A stretch of 64,000 bases of DNA from Jatrophihabitans cynanchi (GTDB taxonomy: Bacteria > Actinomycetota > Actinomycetes > Mycobacteriales > Jatrophihabitantaceae): contig NZ_CP097463.1 of assembly GCF_027247405.1 (NCBI RefSeq), forward strand, positions 3,782,001 to 3,846,000, read 5' to 3'. The position numbers were made by a program, and so were the translations under genes. Shown here in pieces: positions 18,928-32,181 of the stretch; the first letter of the stretch is position 1, and every line of letters begins with the position of its first letter. The notes under the pieces are model-generated. The model was given only the letters and a program-made list of their open reading frames with translations. It was not told the DNA's origin and did no database searches.

Positions 18928-19701
18928 CTACCGGTTCCCACCGTACGAATCGGAATGCGCCGCGGCAATCGCGGCCAGCAGCGGTGCGGCGAGCTCACGC
19001 CTGCAGATGAGCAGATCGGGCAGGTACGGATGCGCGCTGTTGTAGACCAGCGGTGAGCCGTCGACGCGGCTCGCGTGCAGCCCGGCCGCCGCCGCGACGC
19101 CGACGGGGGCGGCCGAGTCCCATTCCCACTGGCCCCCCGCGTGCAGGTAGGCGGCCGCCTCGCCGCGCACGACGGCCATCGCCTTGGCGCCGGCCGAACC
19201 CATCGGCCGCAGTTCGGCACCGACCGCGGACGCGACGGCCGGTGCGAACTGCGGCGGCCGGCTGTCGCTGACCAGGATCACCGCGCGTTCCGCGGCGGGC
19301 CCGGCGTGGACGTCGTCGCTCGCGTAGACGGCCTCGAGCGCGGGCTGCGCGACGGCCGCATCGGTGATCTCGCCGGACCCACCGGAGCCGCGCTGCCAGA
19401 GCGCGACGTGCACCGCCCAGTCGGTCCTGCCGGTCAGGCCGTACTCGCGGGTGCCGTCGAGCGGGTCGATGATCCAGACCCGGTCGTGCGAGAGCCGGGC
19501 GGGGGAGTCCGCAGACTCCTCGGACAGGACGGCGTCGTCCGGTCGCTGCGCCGCGAGTTCGCGTAGCAGCAGCGCGTTCGACTCGCTGTCGCCGCGCTTG
19601 CCGAGTTCCTTACCGGTCAGCCCGCTGTCGGCCTGCAGCCTGAGCAGCAACTGCCCGGCCTGCTCGGCCAGCGTAGCCGCCAGCCGCGCGTCGCTGGTCA
19701 C
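18928..19701 (-). CDS. cysQ: 3'(2'),5'-bisphosphate nucleotidase CysQ
   Basis: A 257-residue Mg2+-dependent, Li+-sensitive phosphatase of the inositol monophosphatase superfamily. The metal-site motifs are [17 protein letters not shown] and [12 protein letters not shown] (the last with the conserved WD-x-A). It hydrolyses PAP, the by-product of PAPS-using enzymes, to AMP and can also hydrolyse PAPS. Its GTG start at 19701 overlaps the cysNC stop (GTGA), putting it in the sulfate-activation operon. Context and motifs favour PAP phosphatase over inositol phosphatase. Confidence 0.9.
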
Positions 19702-21554
19702 TGCCCGAGGCGTTCGACGCGGTCCAGGACGATGCCGGCGAGCGCGGCCGTGTCACCGTCGGCGGGGCGCAGCAGCAGGTCGGGGCTCTGCGGCGCCTCG
19801 TACGGGTCGTCGATGCCGGTGAAGCCGGTGATCTCCCCGGCTCGAGCCTTGGCGTACATGCCCTTCGGGTCGCGCTGCTCGCACACCTCCAGCGGGGTGT
19901 CCATGAACACCTCGAGGAACGGCAGCCCGGCCTGCTCGTGCGCGGCGCGCGCGGCGTCGCGGTCGGCGCGGTACGGCGAGACGAGTGAGACCAGCGCGAC
20001 GACACCGGCGTCGGCGAGCAGTTGCGCGACGGCGGCGACGCGGCGCACGTTCTCGGCGCGATCCGCTGCGCTGAAGCCGAGGTCGCTGTTGAGCCCGTGC
20101 CGCAGGTTGTCACCGTCGAGCAGGTAGGCCGGCCGCCCGGACGCGACCAGCCGCCGCTCGAGTTCGACCGCGACACTGGACTTGCCGGAGCCGGACAGGC
20201 CGGTGATCCAGACGGTCAGGCCCTTGGTCGGGCGCTGCTCGCGGGTGACCGCGCCGCCGTGCCAGACCACGTTCGCCTCGCTCTGGCTCGGCCCGGTGAT
20301 CATTCCAGCAGCGACGGTGTTGTTGGTCGCCTCGTCGATCAGGATGAAGCTGCCGGTGTCGCGATTGCGCCGGTACGAGTCGAACAGCAGCGGCTGCTGG
20401 GTGCGCAGCCGGACGCGCCCGATCTCGTTGAGGCTCAGCTGCTCGGCGTCCTCGTCCCGGTGCAGCGTGTTGACGTCCAGCCGGTAGTCAAGCTGCTTGA
20501 CGCTCGCCCGGGTGCTGCGGGTGGTGTGCATGATCGTGTACGTGGCGCCCTCGGTGAGCGCGCTCGCCGAGGTGAACCAGCAGACCATCGCGTCGATGTC
20601 CTGCCCGACGTGCGGACGGTTCGCCGGCCTGGCGATCAGGTCGCCACGGGTGATGTCGATGTCGTCGGTGAGTTCGATCGTCACCGCCTGGCCGGCGAAG
20701 GCCTCGGTCACGGTCGTCCCGCCGGGGCCCCAGACCTTGGCGACCCGGCTGTGGAACCCGGACGGCAGCACCGCGACCTCGTCACCGGCCTTGAACGTGC
20801 CGCCGGCGACGGTGCCCGCGTAGCCGCGGAAGTCATGCAGTGTCGCGTGGCTGGACTGGTGCGGCCGGATCACGTACTGCACCGGGAATCGCGCGTCGAT
20901 CAGGTTGCGGTCGCTCGCGACGTGCAGGTCCTCCAGGTGCCGCAGCAGGCCGGTGCCCTCGTACCACGGCATGTTCTCGCTGCGGGTCACCACGTTGTCA
21001 CCGACCAGGGCCGACACCGGGATGAAGGTGAGGTCGGAAACCGCGAGCTTGGTGGCGAACGCGCGGAAGTCGGCGCGGATCTCCTCGAAGCGCTCCTGGC
21101 TGTAGCCGACCAGGTCCATCTTGTTGATGCAGAGGACGAGGTGCGGGATGCCGAGAAGGGACGCGAGGAAGGCGTGCCGGCGGGACTGCTCCAGCACCCC
21201 GTTGCGCGCGTCGATCAGGATCAGCGCGACGTCGGCGGTCGAGGCGCCGGTGACCATGTTGCGCGTGTACTGGATGTGCCCGGGGGTGTCGGCGATGATG
21301 AACTTGCGCTTGGGCGTGGCGAAGTAGCGGTAGGCGACGTCGATCGTGATGCCCTGCTCCCGCTCGGCGCGCAGCCCGTCGGTGAGCAGCGCCAGGTCCG
21401 GAGCGTCCTGGCCGCGGGCGTGGCTGGTGCGCTCGACCGAGCTGAGCTGGTCCTCGAAGATCGCCTTCGAGTCGTACAGCAGCCTGCCGATCAGGGTCGA
21501 CTTGCCGTCGTCCACGCTGCCGGCGGTGGCGATGCGCAGCAGTTGCGAGGCCAT
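19698..21554 (-). CDS. cysNC: Bifunctional sulfate adenylyltransferase subunit 1 / APS kinase
   Basis: A 618-residue fusion. Residues ~1-430 are CysN, the GTPase that drives APS formation by CysD: P-loop [18 protein letters not shown]. Residues ~440-618 are CysC, APS kinase: P-loop GLSGSGKSS (~451-459), then [16 protein letters not shown] and the [20 protein letters not shown] block. The protein thus converts sulfate plus ATP to APS and then PAPS. The gene abuts cysD with no spacer. The same fusion is known in mycobacteria. Confidence 0.96.
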
Positions 21555-22466
21555 CTAGAAGTACCCCTCCTTCTTGCGGTCTTCCATCCCGGCCTCGCTG
21601 ATCCGGTCGTCGGCACGCGTGGCGCCGCGCTCGGTGATGCGCGCCGCGGCGACCTCGGTCACCACCTCGGCGGCCGTCGCGGCGGTCGACTCCACGCAGC
21701 CGGTGCAGGTCGCGTCGCCGATGGTGCGGAACCGCACCATCGCCTCGAACGGCGCTTCCCCCTCGATGCGCTGCAGGAACCTGGTGTCGGCCAGCAGCAT
21801 CCCGTCCCGCTCGATCACCGGGCGCTTGTGCGCGTAGTACAGCGGCGGCAGTGCGATGTTCTCGCGCAGGATGTAGTTCCAGATGTCCAGCTCGGTCCAG
21901 TTCGACAGCGGGAACACCCGGATGTTCTCGCCCCTGCGGTGCCGCCCGTTGTACAGGCTCCACAGCTCCGGACGCTGGTTGCGCGGGTCCCAGGCGCCGA
22001 ACTCGTCGCGGAAGGAGAACACCCGCTCCTTCGCGCGGGCCTTCTCCTCGTCGCGGCGCGCCCCGCCGAACACGGCGCCGAACTGGTTCTCCCGGATGCC
22101 GCGCAGCAGCGTGACGGTCTGCAGCCGGTTCCGCGACGCCCGCGGCCCGGTGTCCTCGACCACGCGGCCGGCGTCGATGTCGTCCTGCACGCTGGCCACG
22201 ACCAGCCGCACGCCGAGCTGGTCGGCCACCCGGTCGCGGAACGCGATCACCTCGTCGAAGTTGTGCCCGGTGTCCACGTGCATCACCGGAAACGGCACCG
22301 GAGCCGGCCAGAACGCCTTGGCCGCGACGTGCAGCATCACGACCGAGTCCTTGCCGCCGGAGAACAGCAGGCCGGGGCGCTCGATCGTCGCCGCCACCTC
22401 GCGGAAGATGTGCACCGCCTCGGCCTCGAGCTTGTCGAGATCGGTCAACTCATAGGTCGCCGTCAT
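21555..22466 (-). CDS. cysD: Sulfate adenylyltransferase subunit 2
   Basis: A 303-residue ATP sulfurylase catalytic subunit of the PAPS-reductase-like PP-loop family: the pyrophosphate loop is FSGGKDSVVMLH, and EIERDGMLLA-type and C-terminal RxSERGA-type blocks are recognisable (ITERGATRADDRISE, KKEGYF). With the CysN half of the next gene it makes APS from sulfate and ATP. It is first in the operon. ATG at 22466 has AAGGGGGG four bases upstream, and a stable hairpin lies directly before that site. Confidence 0.95.
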   Translation of the reverse strand: MTATYELTDLDKLEAEAVHIFREVAATIERPGLLFSGGKDSVVMLHVAAKAFWPAPVPFPVMHVDTGHNFDEVIAFRDRVADQLGVRLVVASVQDDIDAGRVVEDTGPRASRNRLQTVTLLRGIRENQFGAVFGGARRDEEKARAKERVFSFRDEFGAWDPRNQRPELWSLYNGRHRRGENIRVFPLSNWTELDIWNYILRENIALPPLYYAHKRPVIERDGMLLADTRFLQRIEGEAPFEAMVRFRTIGDATCTGCVESTAATAAEVVTEVAAARITERGATRADDRISEAGMEDRKKEGYF

Positions 22467-22546: not shown

Positions 22547-22618
22547 GACATCGGCATCTACGGCGGGTTCTAAAGCCGCCGTTGTGCGGCCGGTGCGGCC
22601 AGCTGGATTGACGGCCGT

Positions 22619-22632
22619 TAGAACAAGTTCTA
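22619..22632 (+). promoter_or_regulatory. 14-bp palindrome matching the KstR-type operator consensus
   Basis: TAGAACAAGTTCTA is a perfect palindrome that fits TnnAACnnGTTnnA, the consensus of the TetR-type sterol-catabolism repressor KstR. It ends 11 bases before the ATG at 22644 and overlaps a possible -10 (TAGTTT, 22631-22636), the position expected for repression of a leaderless transcript. Identification of the regulator as KstR is inference from the motif only. Confidence 0.5.
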
Positions 22633-22643
22633 GTTTGAGGGCC

Positions 22644-23810
22644 ATGCTCACCGGGGTTCTCGCGGACGCGATCGTCGAGGCGGAGAAGCTGATCGAGTCG
22701 GCACCGCACGTGCGCACCGAGCAGGATCTGCGCGAGGGCTACGACTACCTGGCCGGGATGGTGCGCCAGGCGATCGCCTCGGCGTGGTCGCGCGATCACG
22801 AGTTCCCGCACTTCGTCCGGTCCGCCACGCCGTACACCAAGGTCGGTCTCGACAACCCGGACACGCTGTACTTCAGCGCGCGGATCCGCGACGACGCCGA
22901 GTACGTGGTGACCGGGCGGCGCGGGACGACGGCGGACCTGAGCTTTCAGGTGCTCAACGGCGACTACACGCCGGCCGAGGTGCCGCAGAGCCTGTCGGCG
23001 TTCGACGACCGCGAGCTCGAGATTGCGGCCGACGGGACCTTCCAGCTGCGCTTCGGGCCGGCCGGTGCGGATGCAGGCGCCAACTACTTCGTGCTGGGGC
23101 CGGGCGCGGCGATGCTGCTGGTGCGCGAGGTGTTCAGCGACTGGACGAGCCGCGCCGGGTCGATCCGGATCCAACGCACCGACCGCATCGGGCGCGCGCC
23201 GGCGACTCCGCCGGAAGGGCTGTACGACAAGCGGTTCGCCGCAGCCGCGAAGACACTGGTGGCGCAGCTGAAGACCTTCCTGGCCTTCCCCGAGTGGTTC
23301 TACCTGAAGCTGCCGGCCAACACGATGACCGAGCCGCGGCTGACGCCGGGCGGACTGGCCACCCAGTACTCGTCGGTCGGTCACTACGAACTGGCCGACG
23401 ACCGCGCGCTGGTGATCACGGTGCCGGTGTCCGACGCCCCGTACCAGGGCTTCCAACTCGGCTCGATGTGGTACCTGTCGATGGACTTCGCCAACCACCA
23501 GACCTCGCTGACCGCGCAGCAGGCGCGGCACGACCCGGACGCGATGATCCGCTTCGTCGTCAGCGAGCGTGACCCGGGACTGGCCAACTGGCTCGAGTGC
23601 ACCGGCCATCCGCGTGGCTACCTGCAGCTCCGGTGGCAGCGCACGTCGCGCGAGTTCACCGCCGCCGACGGGCCGATCGTGCAGGAGGTCGCGTTCGACG
23701 AACTGGCGAGCGTGCTGCCGCACCACCCGCACGGACGGATCTCGCCGGGCGAGTGGCGCGAGCGCATCGCCGCCCGCCAGGCCTCCGTCGCTGACCGGAT
23801 GCTGGGTTAG
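22644..23810 (+). CDS. DUF1214-like protein of unknown function
   Basis: A 388-residue soluble protein without signal peptide or membrane spans. Landmarks are TPYTKVGLDNPDTLYFSARI, a Trp/Tyr-rich core (GSMWYLSMDFANHQTSLT) and LGPGAAMLLVREVFSDWT. The pattern resembles proteins annotated with DUF1214, but I hold that loosely. ATG at 22644 is chosen because the KstR-like palindrome and a -10-like element end just before it; no Shine-Dalgarno is obvious. It is the first gene of a run with an SDR, a sulfotransferase and a sirtuin, so a role in lipid or sterol modification is a reasonable guess. Confidence 0.6.
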   Translation: MLTGVLADAIVEAEKLIESAPHVRTEQDLREGYDYLAGMVRQAIASAWSRDHEFPHFVRSATPYTKVGLDNPDTLYFSARIRDDAEYVVTGRRGTTADLSFQVLNGDYTPAEVPQSLSAFDDRELEIAADGTFQLRFGPAGADAGANYFVLGPGAAMLLVREVFSDWTSRAGSIRIQRTDRIGRAPATPPEGLYDKRFAAAAKTLVAQLKTFLAFPEWFYLKLPANTMTEPRLTPGGLATQYSSVGHYELADDRALVITVPVSDAPYQGFQLGSMWYLSMDFANHQTSLTAQQARHDPDAMIRFVVSERDPGLANWLECTGHPRGYLQLRWQRTSREFTAADGPIVQEVAFDELASVLPHHPHGRISPGEWRERIAARQASVADRMLG

Positions 23811-23815
23811 CCCAC

Positions 23816-24601
23816 GTGTCGGGGAGCGTGCTCGCGAGCCGGATCGTCGTGATCTCCGGTGTCGGTCCCGGGCTGGGCCGCGCGATCGCCGAGCAGTGCG
23901 CGCGGGCCGGTGCCGACCTCGTCCTCGCCTCCCGCACCGAGCCCCGGCTGCAAGAGGTGGCCGCCGGTGTCCGCGCGCTCGGCCGCCGCGCACTCGTGGT
24001 GCCCACCGACATCAACGACGACGCCGCGGCGCAGCACCTGCTCGACGCGGCGGTCGGGGAGTACGGACAGGTCGACGCGCTGGTCAGCAACGCGTTCGCG
24101 GTGCCGCCGCTCGGGCCGCTGCAGACGGTCGACTTCAACGCCGCGCGCGCCGGGTTCGAGACGAACGTGTTCGCGGCGTTGCGCCTGTCGCGGCTGTTCC
24201 TGCCCACCCTGGCCGCGTCGCGCGGCAACATCGTCATGATCAACTCCTCGGTGCTGCGTCACTCCAGCCAGCCCTACGGCGCGTACAAGATGACCAAGGC
24301 CGCGCTGCTGGCGCTGGCGCAGTGCCTGGCAAGCGAGTTCGGGCCGCGCGGGGTCCGGGTGAACTCGGTCGCGCCGGGCTGGATCTGGGCCGAGACGCTG
24401 CAGAACTACTTCGGCTACCTCGCCGGCAAGCGCGGGGTCGACGCGCAGGTCGTCCACGACGAGATCGCCGCGACGATCGACCTGCGCCGGTTGCCCGTTC
24501 CGGACGAGATTGCCGATGCGGTGGTGTTCATGGCCTCCGACCTCGCCCGCGGCATCACCGGGCACTGCCTCGACGTCAACTGCGGCGAGTATCACCACTA
24601 G
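23816..24601 (+). CDS. Short-chain dehydrogenase/reductase (SDR)
   Basis: A 261-residue NAD(P)-dependent oxidoreductase of the classical SDR type. The Rossmann motif is SGVGPGLG near the N-terminus, the NAG-like position reads VSNAF, catalytic Ser is in MINSSVLRHSS and the active-site YxxxK is YGAYK. It ends ITGHCLDVNCGEYHH. The usual NAG motif (NNAG) is SNAF here, seen in some mycobacterial SDRs. GTG at 23816 lies five bases after the preceding stop, so it belongs to the same transcript. The substrate is unknown; a hydroxylated lipid or steroid fits the context. Confidence 0.88.
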   Translation: MSGSVLASRIVVISGVGPGLGRAIAEQCARAGADLVLASRTEPRLQEVAAGVRALGRRALVVPTDINDDAAAQHLLDAAVGEYGQVDALVSNAFAVPPLGPLQTVDFNAARAGFETNVFAALRLSRLFLPTLAASRGNIVMINSSVLRHSSQPYGAYKMTKAALLALAQCLASEFGPRGVRVNSVAPGWIWAETLQNYFGYLAGKRGVDAQVVHDEIAATIDLRRLPVPDEIADAVVFMASDLARGITGHCLDVNCGEYHH

Positions 24602-24656: not shown

Positions 24657-25835
24657 ATGACCGAAAGAATTTCCGTTGGAACCATTGCGGATCTGCAGGC
24701 GTCGGCGGCGCAGCTGACCGGGCTGTCCGACTTCGGCGACGTGAGCTACCGCACCGGCCTGACCACCCTGCTCGACTCGTACGCCGAGGACGAGGAGCTC
24801 ACCCCGCTCGGCTGCAAGATCAAGCGCGCGGAGTTGCGTGGCGCGCTGGTCGCGCGGCTGCTGAGCGAGGCGGCGTGGACGCAGTATCCGGCGTCGGCCG
24901 ACGTCCCGATCGAGCGGCCGATCTTCGTCACCGGGCTGCCACGCACCGGCACGACCGCACTGCACCGGCTGCTGTGCGCCGACCCTGCCGCGCAGGGCCT
25001 GGAGCAGTGGCTGTGCGAGGTGCCCCAGCCGCGGCCGCCGCGCGATAGCTGGCCGGACAACCCGATCTTCCAGCACATCCAGCACGGGTTCGAGCAGTTC
25101 CACGCCGCCAACCCGGAGTTCGCCGGCGTGCACTACATCGCCGCGGACACGGTGGAGGAGTGCTGGCAACTGCTGCGCCAGTCGGCGATGTCGATCTCGT
25201 ACGAATCGCTCGCGCACGTGCCCGGCTACTCCGCCTGGCTGGCCCGGCAGAACTGGACGCCAGCCTACGCGCGGCACCGGCGAAACCTGCAGCTGATCGG
25301 CCTGAACGACGCCGGGAAGCGCTGGGTGCTGAAGAACCCGAGCCACCTGTTCGCGCTGGACGCCTTGCTCGCGGTGTACCCGGACGCGCTGATCGTGCAG
25401 ACTCATCGCGACCCGCGCGTGGCGGTTGCGTCCAGCTGCAGCCTGTCCGCGCTGGCCACCCGCGGGCACTCGACCCGGTTCGTCGGCGGCACGCTCGGAG
25501 CGGACCAGCTGGACCTGCTGGCCCGGGGCGCAGCGCTGTTCGCAGCGAGCCGCGCCCGGCACGACCCGGACCGGTTCGTCGACGTGCAGTACGAGGACCT
25601 GGTGGGTGACCCGGTCGGCACGGTCGCGGGCGTGTACGCGGCGTTCGGCCTGCCGTTCGACGAGCAGGTCCGTGCGGCCGTTACCGCCGAGGACGCCGCG
25701 TCCCGGGCCGGGGCACGCGCGCCGGCGCATCGGTACACCCTTGCCGACTTCGGGTTGACCGGCGCCGACGTCGACGCCCGGTTCGCCGACTACGTCGCCA
25801 CCCACCGGCCGGCGCCGGGCACCATGGACGGGTGA
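24657..25835 (+). CDS. PAPS-dependent sulfotransferase family protein
   Basis: A 392-residue cytosolic sulfotransferase of the bacterial Sulfotransfer_3 type. The 5'-phosphosulfate loop is FVTGLPRTGTTALHRLL (~residues 85-101) and the 3'-phosphate binding region includes WVLKNPSHLF and VQTHRDPRVAVASSCSL. C-terminal VQYEDLVGDPVGTVAGVYAAFGLPF is typical. Such enzymes move sulfate from PAPS to an alcohol or lipid. The PAPS-making operon is transcribed divergently only 2 kb away. A 55-base gap separates it from the SDR. Acceptor unknown. The ATG at 24657 begins MTERISVGTIADL. Confidence 0.88.
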   Translation: MTERISVGTIADLQASAAQLTGLSDFGDVSYRTGLTTLLDSYAEDEELTPLGCKIKRAELRGALVARLLSEAAWTQYPASADVPIERPIFVTGLPRTGTTALHRLLCADPAAQGLEQWLCEVPQPRPPRDSWPDNPIFQHIQHGFEQFHAANPEFAGVHYIAADTVEECWQLLRQSAMSISYESLAHVPGYSAWLARQNWTPAYARHRRNLQLIGLNDAGKRWVLKNPSHLFALDALLAVYPDALIVQTHRDPRVAVASSCSLSALATRGHSTRFVGGTLGADQLDLLARGAALFAASRARHDPDRFVDVQYEDLVGDPVGTVAGVYAAFGLPFDEQVRAAVTAEDAASRAGARAPAHRYTLADFGLTGADVDARFADYVATHRPAPGTMDG

Positions 25836-26656
25836 GTGTTGCGACCGAGACGCTGACCCCGCTGCGGGAGCTCGTGCAACGGGGGCGCGTGGTGGTGCTC
25901 AGCGGCGCGGGGCTGTCGACCGAGTCGGGCATCCCGGACTACCGCGGCCCGAGCGGCGCGCTGCGGCGGCACGCCCCGATGACCTACCAGGCGTTCGTCG
26001 GCGACGCGGCGGCGCGGCACCGCTACTGGGCGCGCAGCTACCTCGGTTGGCGGCAGATCAGCGGCGCCGAACCGAACCGCGGGCACCGTGCCGTCGCCGC
26101 GCTGCAGCGCAGCGGACGGGTCGAGGCGATCATCACCCAGAACGTGGACGGACTGCACCAGCGGGCCGGAGCGCGGGACGTCGTGGAGCTGCACGGTGGC
26201 CTGGACCGCACCGTGTGCCTGGCGTGCCACGACCGCGCGCCGCGCGCCGAGCTCGACGCGCGGCTGCGCGCGGCCAATCCGGAGTTCGACGCCGAGGTCG
26301 CCGCGGTCAACCCGGACGGTGACGCCGAGCTCGCCGACGACCAGCTCGCCGGGTTCGTGATGCTCGACTGCGCCGCGTGCGGCGGCGGACCGCTCAAGCC
26401 GGACGTCGTGTTCTTCGGTGAGAACGTTCCGCGGCCGCGCGTGGACCGCTGTTTCCAGGCCGTCGAGGAAGCCGCCGCCCTGCTCGTGCTCGGATCGTCA
26501 CTGACCGTGCTGTCCGGGTTCCGCTTCGTCCGGCACGCCGCCCGGCGCGCGACGCCGATCGCGATCGTGAACCAGGGCGCGACGCGTGGCGACGACTTGG
26601 CGACGGTGCGTGTCGACGGCGCGCTCGGCGAGGTGCTCAGCGCGCTGGCCGACTGA
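25832..26656 (+). CDS. Sir2-family NAD-dependent protein deacylase
   Basis: A 274-residue sirtuin. NAD-binding GAGLSTESGIPDYRG (25-39), TQNVDGLH (102-109), catalytic His121 in ELHGG, and a complete zinc site Cys129/Cys132 and Cys180/Cys183. The insert between the zinc pairs is long, as in SIRT4-like class II sirtuins, which remove acyl or ADP-ribosyl groups from lysines. GTG at 25832 overlaps the sulfotransferase stop, so it is co-translated with that gene. Whether it regulates the enzymes of this operon, for example acyl-CoA synthetases, is unknown. Confidence 0.93.
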   Translation: MSVATETLTPLRELVQRGRVVVLSGAGLSTESGIPDYRGPSGALRRHAPMTYQAFVGDAAARHRYWARSYLGWRQISGAEPNRGHRAVAALQRSGRVEAIITQNVDGLHQRAGARDVVELHGGLDRTVCLACHDRAPRAELDARLRAANPEFDAEVAAVNPDGDAELADDQLAGFVMLDCAACGGGPLKPDVVFFGENVPRPRVDRCFQAVEEAAALLVLGSSLTVLSGFRFVRHAARRATPIAIVNQGATRGDDLATVRVDGALGEVLSALAD

Positions 26657-31095: not shown

Positions 31096-32181
31096 ATGGC
31101 ACACGAGGTTCGCGGGGTCGTCAGCATCGCCAAGGGCGAGCCGGTTCGGCTGGAGACGGTGCTGGTGCCCGACCCCGGGCCCGGCGAGGCGCTGGTGCGC
31201 GTGCAGGCCTGCGGCGTCTGCCACACCGATCTGCACTACCGCGAGGGCGGCATCTCCGACGACTTCCCGTTCCTGCTCGGCCATGAGGCCTCCGGTGTCG
31301 TCGAGTCCGTGGGCGACGGCGTCAGTGCCGTCGCCCCCGGTGACTTCGTGATCCTGAACTGGCGCGCGGTCTGCGGCAACTGCCGGGCCTGCCGGCGCGG
31401 CCGCCCTTGGTACTGCTTCAACACGTTCAACGCGAGCCGGCCGATGACGCTCGCGGACGGCACGCCGCTGTCGCCCGCACTCGGCATCGGCGCGTTCGCG
31501 GAACTGACCCTCGTGCACGCGGGCCAGTGCACCAAGGTCGACCCGTCGGTGCGTCCCGAGGTCGCCGGGCTGCTGGGCTGCGGCGTGATGGCCGGGCTCG
31601 GGGCCGCCATCAACACCGGCGCGGTCGGCCGGGGCGACTCGGTCGCGGTGATCGGCTGCGGCGGCGTGGGCGGCGCTGCCGTAGCCGGTGCGCGACTGGC
31701 GGGCGCCTCGCGGATCATCGCTGTCGACGTGGACGAACGAAAGCTCGCCACCGCGCGTGAACTCGGCGCGACCGACACCGTGAACTCCCGTGACGCCGAC
31801 CCGATCGAGGCGATCCGCGCGCTGACCGGTGGCCACGGTGCCGACGTCGTGATCGACGCGGTCGGCCGTCCAGAGACGTACCGGACCGCGTTCTACGCTC
31901 GTGACCTCGCCGGCACGGTTGTGCTCGTCGGCGTCCCCACGCCGGAGCTGCAGTTGGAGCTGCCGCTGCTGGACTTGTTCGCCCGCGGCGGCGCGCTCAA
32001 GTCCTCCTGGTACGGCGACTGCCTGCCCTCGCGCGACTTCCCGCTCCTGGTCGACCTGCACCTGCAGGGCCGGCTGCCGCTGGAGCGCTTCGTCAGCGAG
32101 ACGATCGGCCTGGGCGACGTCGAGGCGGCGTTCGCCGCGATGTCGCGCGGCGACGTGTTGCGCAGCGTTGTCGTGTTCTGA
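31096..32181 (+). CDS. mscR: S-(hydroxymethyl)mycothiol dehydrogenase
   Basis: A 361-residue zinc-dependent medium-chain dehydrogenase very like mycobacterial MscR. It oxidises the formaldehyde-mycothiol adduct and reduces S-nitrosomycothiol. Catalytic zinc ligands are Cys39 and His63 (GHE), structural zinc Cys93/96/99/107 ([16 protein letters not shown]), NAD fold VIGCGGVGG, and the family's [17 protein letters not shown] block near the C-terminus. It marks the host as a mycothiol producer. ATG at 31096 is the family start. No MBL-fold hydrolase follows, unlike in mycobacteria. Confidence 0.95.

Follow-up and report, generated by a model that had tools for sequence, protein, structure and literature searches.

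The window analysed here, a 64,000-nucleotide stretch of the Jatrophihabitans cynanchi genome, contains a forward-strand operon headed by a gene of the MSMEG_5932/Rv3531c family (22644..23810), assigned by homology and by a fold match to PDB entry 6ans and to VPA0735-type proteins. It is followed on the same strand by genes encoding a short-chain dehydrogenase (23816..24601; NF005909, 369 bits against a cut-off of 258) and a Stf1-type sulfotransferase (24657..25835; PF13469). The stop codon of the latter is overlapped by a gene encoding a Sir2-type NAD-dependent deacetylase (25832..26656, forward strand), identified through domain profiles and likely co-transcribed with the sulfotransferase gene. 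Back to back with this operon, on the reverse strand and spanning 18928-22466, lie cysD (21555..22466) and cysNC (19698..21554), the latter encoding the ATP sulfurylase large subunit and the APS kinase that makes PAPS, both assigned via family profiles, together with a gene for an inositol-monophosphatase-family protein (18928..19701; PF00459), possibly CysQ. A palindrome, TAGAACAAGTTCTA, occupies positions 22619..22632 in the gap between the two gene groups. It is assigned no strand, and we annotate it as a predicted KstR operator based on its pattern match and on the presence of the strict motif upstream of the operon in 72 of the 80 best related loci.

The sulfotransferase carries a recognizable sulfotransferase domain, and its nearest solved structure is M. 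tuberculosis Stf1 (PDB 2zq5; E 6.8e-149), with which it superimposes well (Z 36.8, rmsd 2.6, 329 aligned residues, 55% identity). By this homology the operon's enzyme is a relative, from a different genus, of Stf1, which we take to be Rv3529c, and it would presumably use PAPS as sulfate donor. The first gene matched no family in Pfam or NCBIfam. Its structural model aligns closely with 6ans (Z 35.1, rmsd 2.6, 343 aligned) and more weakly with VPA0106/VPA0735 (Z 10.7-13.4), entries whose titles name no function. We place it in the MSMEG_5932 family because the peptides TSLNGT and KGYLQF, encoded by the MSMEG_5932 primers given in a passage of PMC1995591, both occur, in that order, in its homologues at loci L152 and L153.

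A preliminary description of this DNA had read the palindrome as a binding site for KstR, the TetR-family regulator of cholesterol catabolism, and a pattern scan confirmed that TAGAACAAGTTCTA matches the KstR consensus TnnAACnnGTTnnA. The site consists of two perfect 6-bp arms, TAGAAC and GTTCTA, around a 2-bp AA centre, and fits both TnnAACnnGTTnnA and TAGAAC(N2)GTTCTA. The degenerate pattern occurs twice in the window against 0.07 matches expected from shuffled sequences, with two matches seen in 1 of 100 shuffles; the second match, at 31417-31430, falls within a predicted gene and looks like a chance occurrence. A count over the entire genome (4,515,412 bases) gave 34 matches to the degenerate pattern versus 10 for a reversed control. 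Since 24 of these 34 matches were intragenic by rough gene calls based on codon usage, the loose consensus carries little weight by itself, and we rejected a match to it as proof of an operator. Two of these intragenic matches, at 2351567 and 4428119, sit where a gene is predicted to start and could be genuine. A half-site-plus-spacer pattern was likewise discarded as too loose (25 strand hits against 18 in the control). The exact palindrome TAGAACNNGTTCTA, by comparison, is found four times in the genome versus none for its reversed control, and all four copies sit between predicted genes: upstream of the sulfotransferase operon (22619-22632 of the window), upstream of a SnoaL_4-domain gene (739343), between an acyl-CoA dehydrogenase gene and a small ferredoxin gene (4361535), and beside kstR (4433320).

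The preliminary description had made its reading depend on a KstR homologue and on other steroid genes sharing the motif, and the genome holds both. The kstR orthologue with its own copy of the palindrome encodes a protein (L033:9508-10119; G000 4433534-4434091) that reaches 334 bits with the KstR equivalog model NF033703, whose cut-off is 280, and it is the only KstR above that cut-off in this genome. A phmmer search of the PDB returned KstR entries as its best matches (5aqc, 5cw8, 3mnl and 5ua2; E about 1e-82, best 1.1e-82). The first alignment to a PDB KstR shows 132 identical residues in 199 columns, and 42 of the 47 residues at alignment positions 14-60, in the N-terminal DNA-binding part, are identical. 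Sites or near-sites also accompany several steroid catabolism genes: a CYP125 gene (E 1e-176), with an exact match to the loose consensus at 4345072 and a near-site at 4344993; the 3-oxosteroid 1-dehydrogenase KstD (4428119); a KshA-like Rieske oxygenase with a KshA_C domain (near-site at 4424206); an acyl-CoA synthetase (near-site at 4355948); and an acyl-CoA dehydrogenase (sites at 4361436 and 4361535) that matches PDB 4x28, presumably FadE26/FadE27. Far from the steroid cluster, a GMC oxidoreductase gene (L020) has a KstR-like site at 2351567-2351580, 29 bp upstream.

Upstream of the first gene, a -35 box (TTGACG, 22608..22613) and a -10 box of the TAnnnT form (TAGTTT, 22631..22636) can be recognized on the forward strand, separated by a 17-bp spacer and followed by the ATG at 22644. 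The palindrome does overlap the likely -10, as initially noted, by two bases only, the first two of the box. A promoter scan with the E. coli consensus reported no promoter at 22608-22636, so our promoter call, including the overlap of operator and -10 region, rests on conservation across relatives: 64 of 73 conserved sites have TTGAC upstream within one fixed stretch of 8 bases, and the T closing TAnnnT is invariant in all 74 aligned sites, the window included. The site stands at -24 in ten loci and, besides the window, at -25 in one, and the promoter layout seen here would also serve these loci. With most of the spacer and the start of the -10 box (its first two bases) taken up by the operator, the promoter would have room for either KstR or RNA polymerase but not both, as has been proposed for the kstR promoter in a passage of Kendall et al. 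2007 (PMC1995591). A transcription start 7-8 bases past the -10 box would fall on or next to the ATG, and the operon mRNA is therefore probably leaderless.

To follow the site across relatives, we retained the best 80 of 485 stretches encoding a relative, drawn from 530 stretches of the genome collection that matched a pattern. Of these best 80 of 485 loci, 72 have the strict motif in the 300 bp ahead of the first gene, as against 7 of 1485 random control windows from the same loci; 28 of the 1485 control windows reach 11 of 12 positions. Outside the operon upstream regions, the 80 loci hold 51 further 11- or 12-of-12 matches, distributed over 49 loci, versus a single match for the reversed pattern in the same 832,976 bases, and 38 of the 51 lie within 250 bp upstream of a SnoaL gene. 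The random-window control thus errs against the KstR reading, since it is contaminated by these probable real extra sites. The sulfotransferase gene is downstream in every one of the best 80 loci, and 75 have the dehydrogenase at the corresponding position; the Sir2 gene is found downstream in three (L034, L036 and L089).

Eight of the best 80 loci lack the strict motif. For L081 and L113 just 38 and 159 bp of upstream sequence are available, the site of L093 is one base off the strict motif, and the nearest 11-of-12 match in L036 is 883 bp upstream. L086 and L090 have no strict site at the operon; their 11- or 12-of-12 site stands in front of the upstream SnoaL gene and could serve the whole unit. 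L038 and L042 come from bins labelled Chloroflexi/Dehalococcoidia, with neither a KstR site nor a KstR above the cut-off, and their operon copies may reflect transfer or mis-binning. The first gene and the sulfotransferase of these two loci are found at 61-68% identity. Among 24 further loci, the strict motif is present in 15, six have it with one or two mismatches, and three (L134, identical in sequence to L036, L149 and L154) show nothing close to it.

The SnoaL gene emerges from this comparison as a partner of the operon. In 43 of the best 80 loci the operon is preceded by a SnoaL_4 gene oriented the same way, and in 38 of these 43 that gene is in turn preceded within 250 bp by an 11- or 12-of-12 KstR-type site, mostly TAGAACnnGTTCTT. 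The SnoaL_4 gene of J. cynanchi itself (G000 739370-739828; L007:3871-4329), whose product is 44-52% identical to the four homologues compared, is placed away from the operon and yet directly behind the exact palindrome at 739343, so that regulation keeps together what position does not.

Regulator and operon also tend to occur together. Among 101 genomes, that of J. cynanchi included, the first gene is present in 23 (E up to 1e-60) and a KstR above the cut-off in 25, and all 23 are among the 25, with G056 and G139 having KstR only; this nesting counts related genomes, and a Fisher p value computed on it is not a true probability. Within the organism's own family (f1), the first gene is found in 6 and KstR in 7 of the 24 listed genomes. 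A caveat attaches to this picture: the first gene never occurs without KstR in the 101 genomes, yet only 59 of the genomes behind the best 80 loci (35/50 and 24/30) have a KstR above the cut-off, leaving 21 without. The site is kept in 18 of these 21, and 17 of the 18 encode a divergent full-length KstR-like protein scoring 130-152 bits against the cut-off of 280; in L112, where the site is also kept, the KstR-like score is only 56 bits. The 17 loci come from genera including Actinomadura and Microtetraspora, both Streptosporangiales, and the other genera among them presumably belong to the same order. In all five stretches fetched around the divergent KstR-like gene (L125-L129), an 11-of-12 match to the site separates it from its divergent neighbour, which encodes an acyl-CoA dehydrogenase in four and an AMP-binding enzyme in one.

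These 17 loci bear directly on the possibility that the palindrome is recognized by a TetR-family repressor other than KstR, one sharing the same half-site, for which the 43 TetR_N matches in the J. cynanchi genome would offer candidates. However, the one KstR of this genome above the cut-off has the same palindrome beside its gene, and the sites beside the divergent KstR-like genes point to a descendant of KstR as their reader; we consider control by a different repressor very unlikely. That the palindrome is a chance match could be argued from the loose consensus, with its largely intragenic occurrences, but not from the exact form, counted at four against zero and conserved in 72 of the best 80 loci, mostly beside TTGAC, which makes coincidence improbable to the point of being negligible.

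A third alternative accepts KstR and shifts its target: bound here, it might also or mainly control the divergent cysD-cysNC genes, making PAPS supply steroid-inducible. The cysD gene lies 152 bp away and is found divergently upstream of the operon in 54 of the best 80 loci, and 29 of the 80 have an additional 11- or 12-of-12 site no more than 250 bp ahead of cysD, in most cases a site held in common with a divergent SnoaL gene. Against this, the -35 and -10 boxes on either side of the site at 22619 are oriented toward the sulfotransferase operon, and many relatives have an iclR or SnoaL gene between the operon site and cysD. Moreover, the genome has only two PAPS_reduct-domain matches, this cysD and 819702-820232, probably CysH, and as the only cysD of the genome it should serve general sulfur assimilation. 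We therefore regard steroid control of the cys genes from this site as unlikely.

The explanation that we hold with high confidence is that the palindrome is a KstR operator repressing the operon promoter, with repression lifted by a steroid intermediate. It is supported by the presence of kstR and its regulon in the genome, by the conservation of the site, and by the mycobacterial precedent, where passages of Kendall et al. 2007 (PMC1995591) describe binding of KstR to a Rv3531c/Rv3532 probe in a gel shift and a 6-fold de-repression of MSMEG_5932, the Rv3531c orthologue, in the absence of kstR, measured by RT-qPCR. Rv3529c, Rv3530c (a possible oxidoreductase) and Rv3531c are listed side by side in a passage of PMC6429209. 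By analogy with mycobacteria, where binding has been demonstrated, a KstR dimer would sit at 22619-22632, over the spacer and the margin of the -10 box, and keep RNA polymerase off. A steroid catabolic intermediate, the presumed ligand here as well, would bind KstR and release it from the operator, and a leaderless transcript would then start on the ATG at 22644 or beside it and encode the first-gene protein, the short-chain dehydrogenase, the Stf1-type sulfotransferase and, here, probably the Sir2 deacetylase. CoA esters, too, are probable ligands of KstR. A passage of PMC8399759 mentions 3-oxo-4-cholestenoic acid, and with KstR in control, induction of the operon by steroid intermediates is to be expected.

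KstR control of the first gene's family is thus already known from mycobacteria (Kendall et al. 2007). The locus resembles the mycobacterial regulon, as described in passages of PMC1995591, in its palindrome, the partial overlap with the -10 box, the first-gene family and the regulator family. It differs in lying 0.5-0.6 Mb from the kstR-CYP125-KstD genes, and in its divergent cysD, perfect palindrome arms and trailing Sir2 gene. KstR sites are presented in PMC3388012 as the most conserved motif found, kept out to Rhodococcus and Nocardia, in passages that make no mention of this operon; we trace the site to records of Jatrophihabitans, Amycolatopsis, Actinomadura, Microtetraspora and Micromonospora. 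What is new is this reach across the actinobacteria, the SnoaL partner with its own KstR-type site, and an element linked to an IclR-family gene in relatives and absent here.

A divergent gene similar to that of an IclR protein from locus L040 lies directly upstream of the operon in 49 of the best 80 loci; the L040 protein itself (L040:4022-4885), the only one on which the profile was run, has the IclR helix-turn-helix PF09339. All 49 of these loci have a TACC within 45 nt past the KstR site, versus 4 of 24 site-bearing loci without iclR, a post hoc count given that the element pattern was drawn from the same 80 loci. A relaxed form of GGTACATATTTGTACC occurs in the 5' leader of 48 of 49 iclR loci versus none of 29 without iclR, the strict TAC-N6-GTA in 26 of 49 versus 1 of 29, and the element in 17 of 1600 random windows of the same loci, true regions included. 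With the patterns fixed, a later test on 19 loci (the 24 further loci minus L132-L136, repeats of genomes already used) found the element in 5 of 8 loci with iclR and 0 of 11 without, or 4 of 7 and 0 of 10 after dropping the duplicates L140 and L141; the three later iclR loci without the element encode IclR proteins at only 46-49% identity. A search of the J. cynanchi genome for the operon's IclR found none with a query that was positive in three of three genomes known to have it, and a search of the window's operon upstream region found no GGTACATATTTGTACC-type element.

In the article passages covered by a literature search, there was no account of an IclR beside this operon or of the operon's function. 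A TAC-N6-GTA palindrome before mycobacterial fatty-acid genes, described in a passage of PMC3388012, resembles the IclR-linked element. SRTF2, a sterol-induced IclR-family regulator encoded beside a ketosteroid dehydrogenase gene (PMC7062782), is like the relatives' operon iclR in belonging to the IclR family and in its tie to steroid growth; it differs in its neighbouring genes, and the likeness is one of description. We tentatively propose, as a possibility somewhat short of probable, that the operon and its SnoaL partner form a conserved steroid-triggered sulfation module of steroid-eating actinobacteria, beside PAPS-making genes, which in most sampled relatives would be doubly locked: KstR would sit on the promoter core, and in the 5' leader a GGTACATATTTGTACC-type palindrome would be bound by an IclR-family regulator. 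In the J. cynanchi lineage the second operator would have disappeared along with the leader and the iclR gene, leaving KstR alone and a leaderless mRNA.

The analysis assigns a sulfotransferase to the regulon of steroid catabolism in a broad range of actinobacteria. Since the operon sits in that regulon, the substrate of the enzyme is probably met during growth on steroids; that the substrate is itself a steroid does not follow from KstR control. The role of Stf1 thereby becomes directly testable in harmless soil species.
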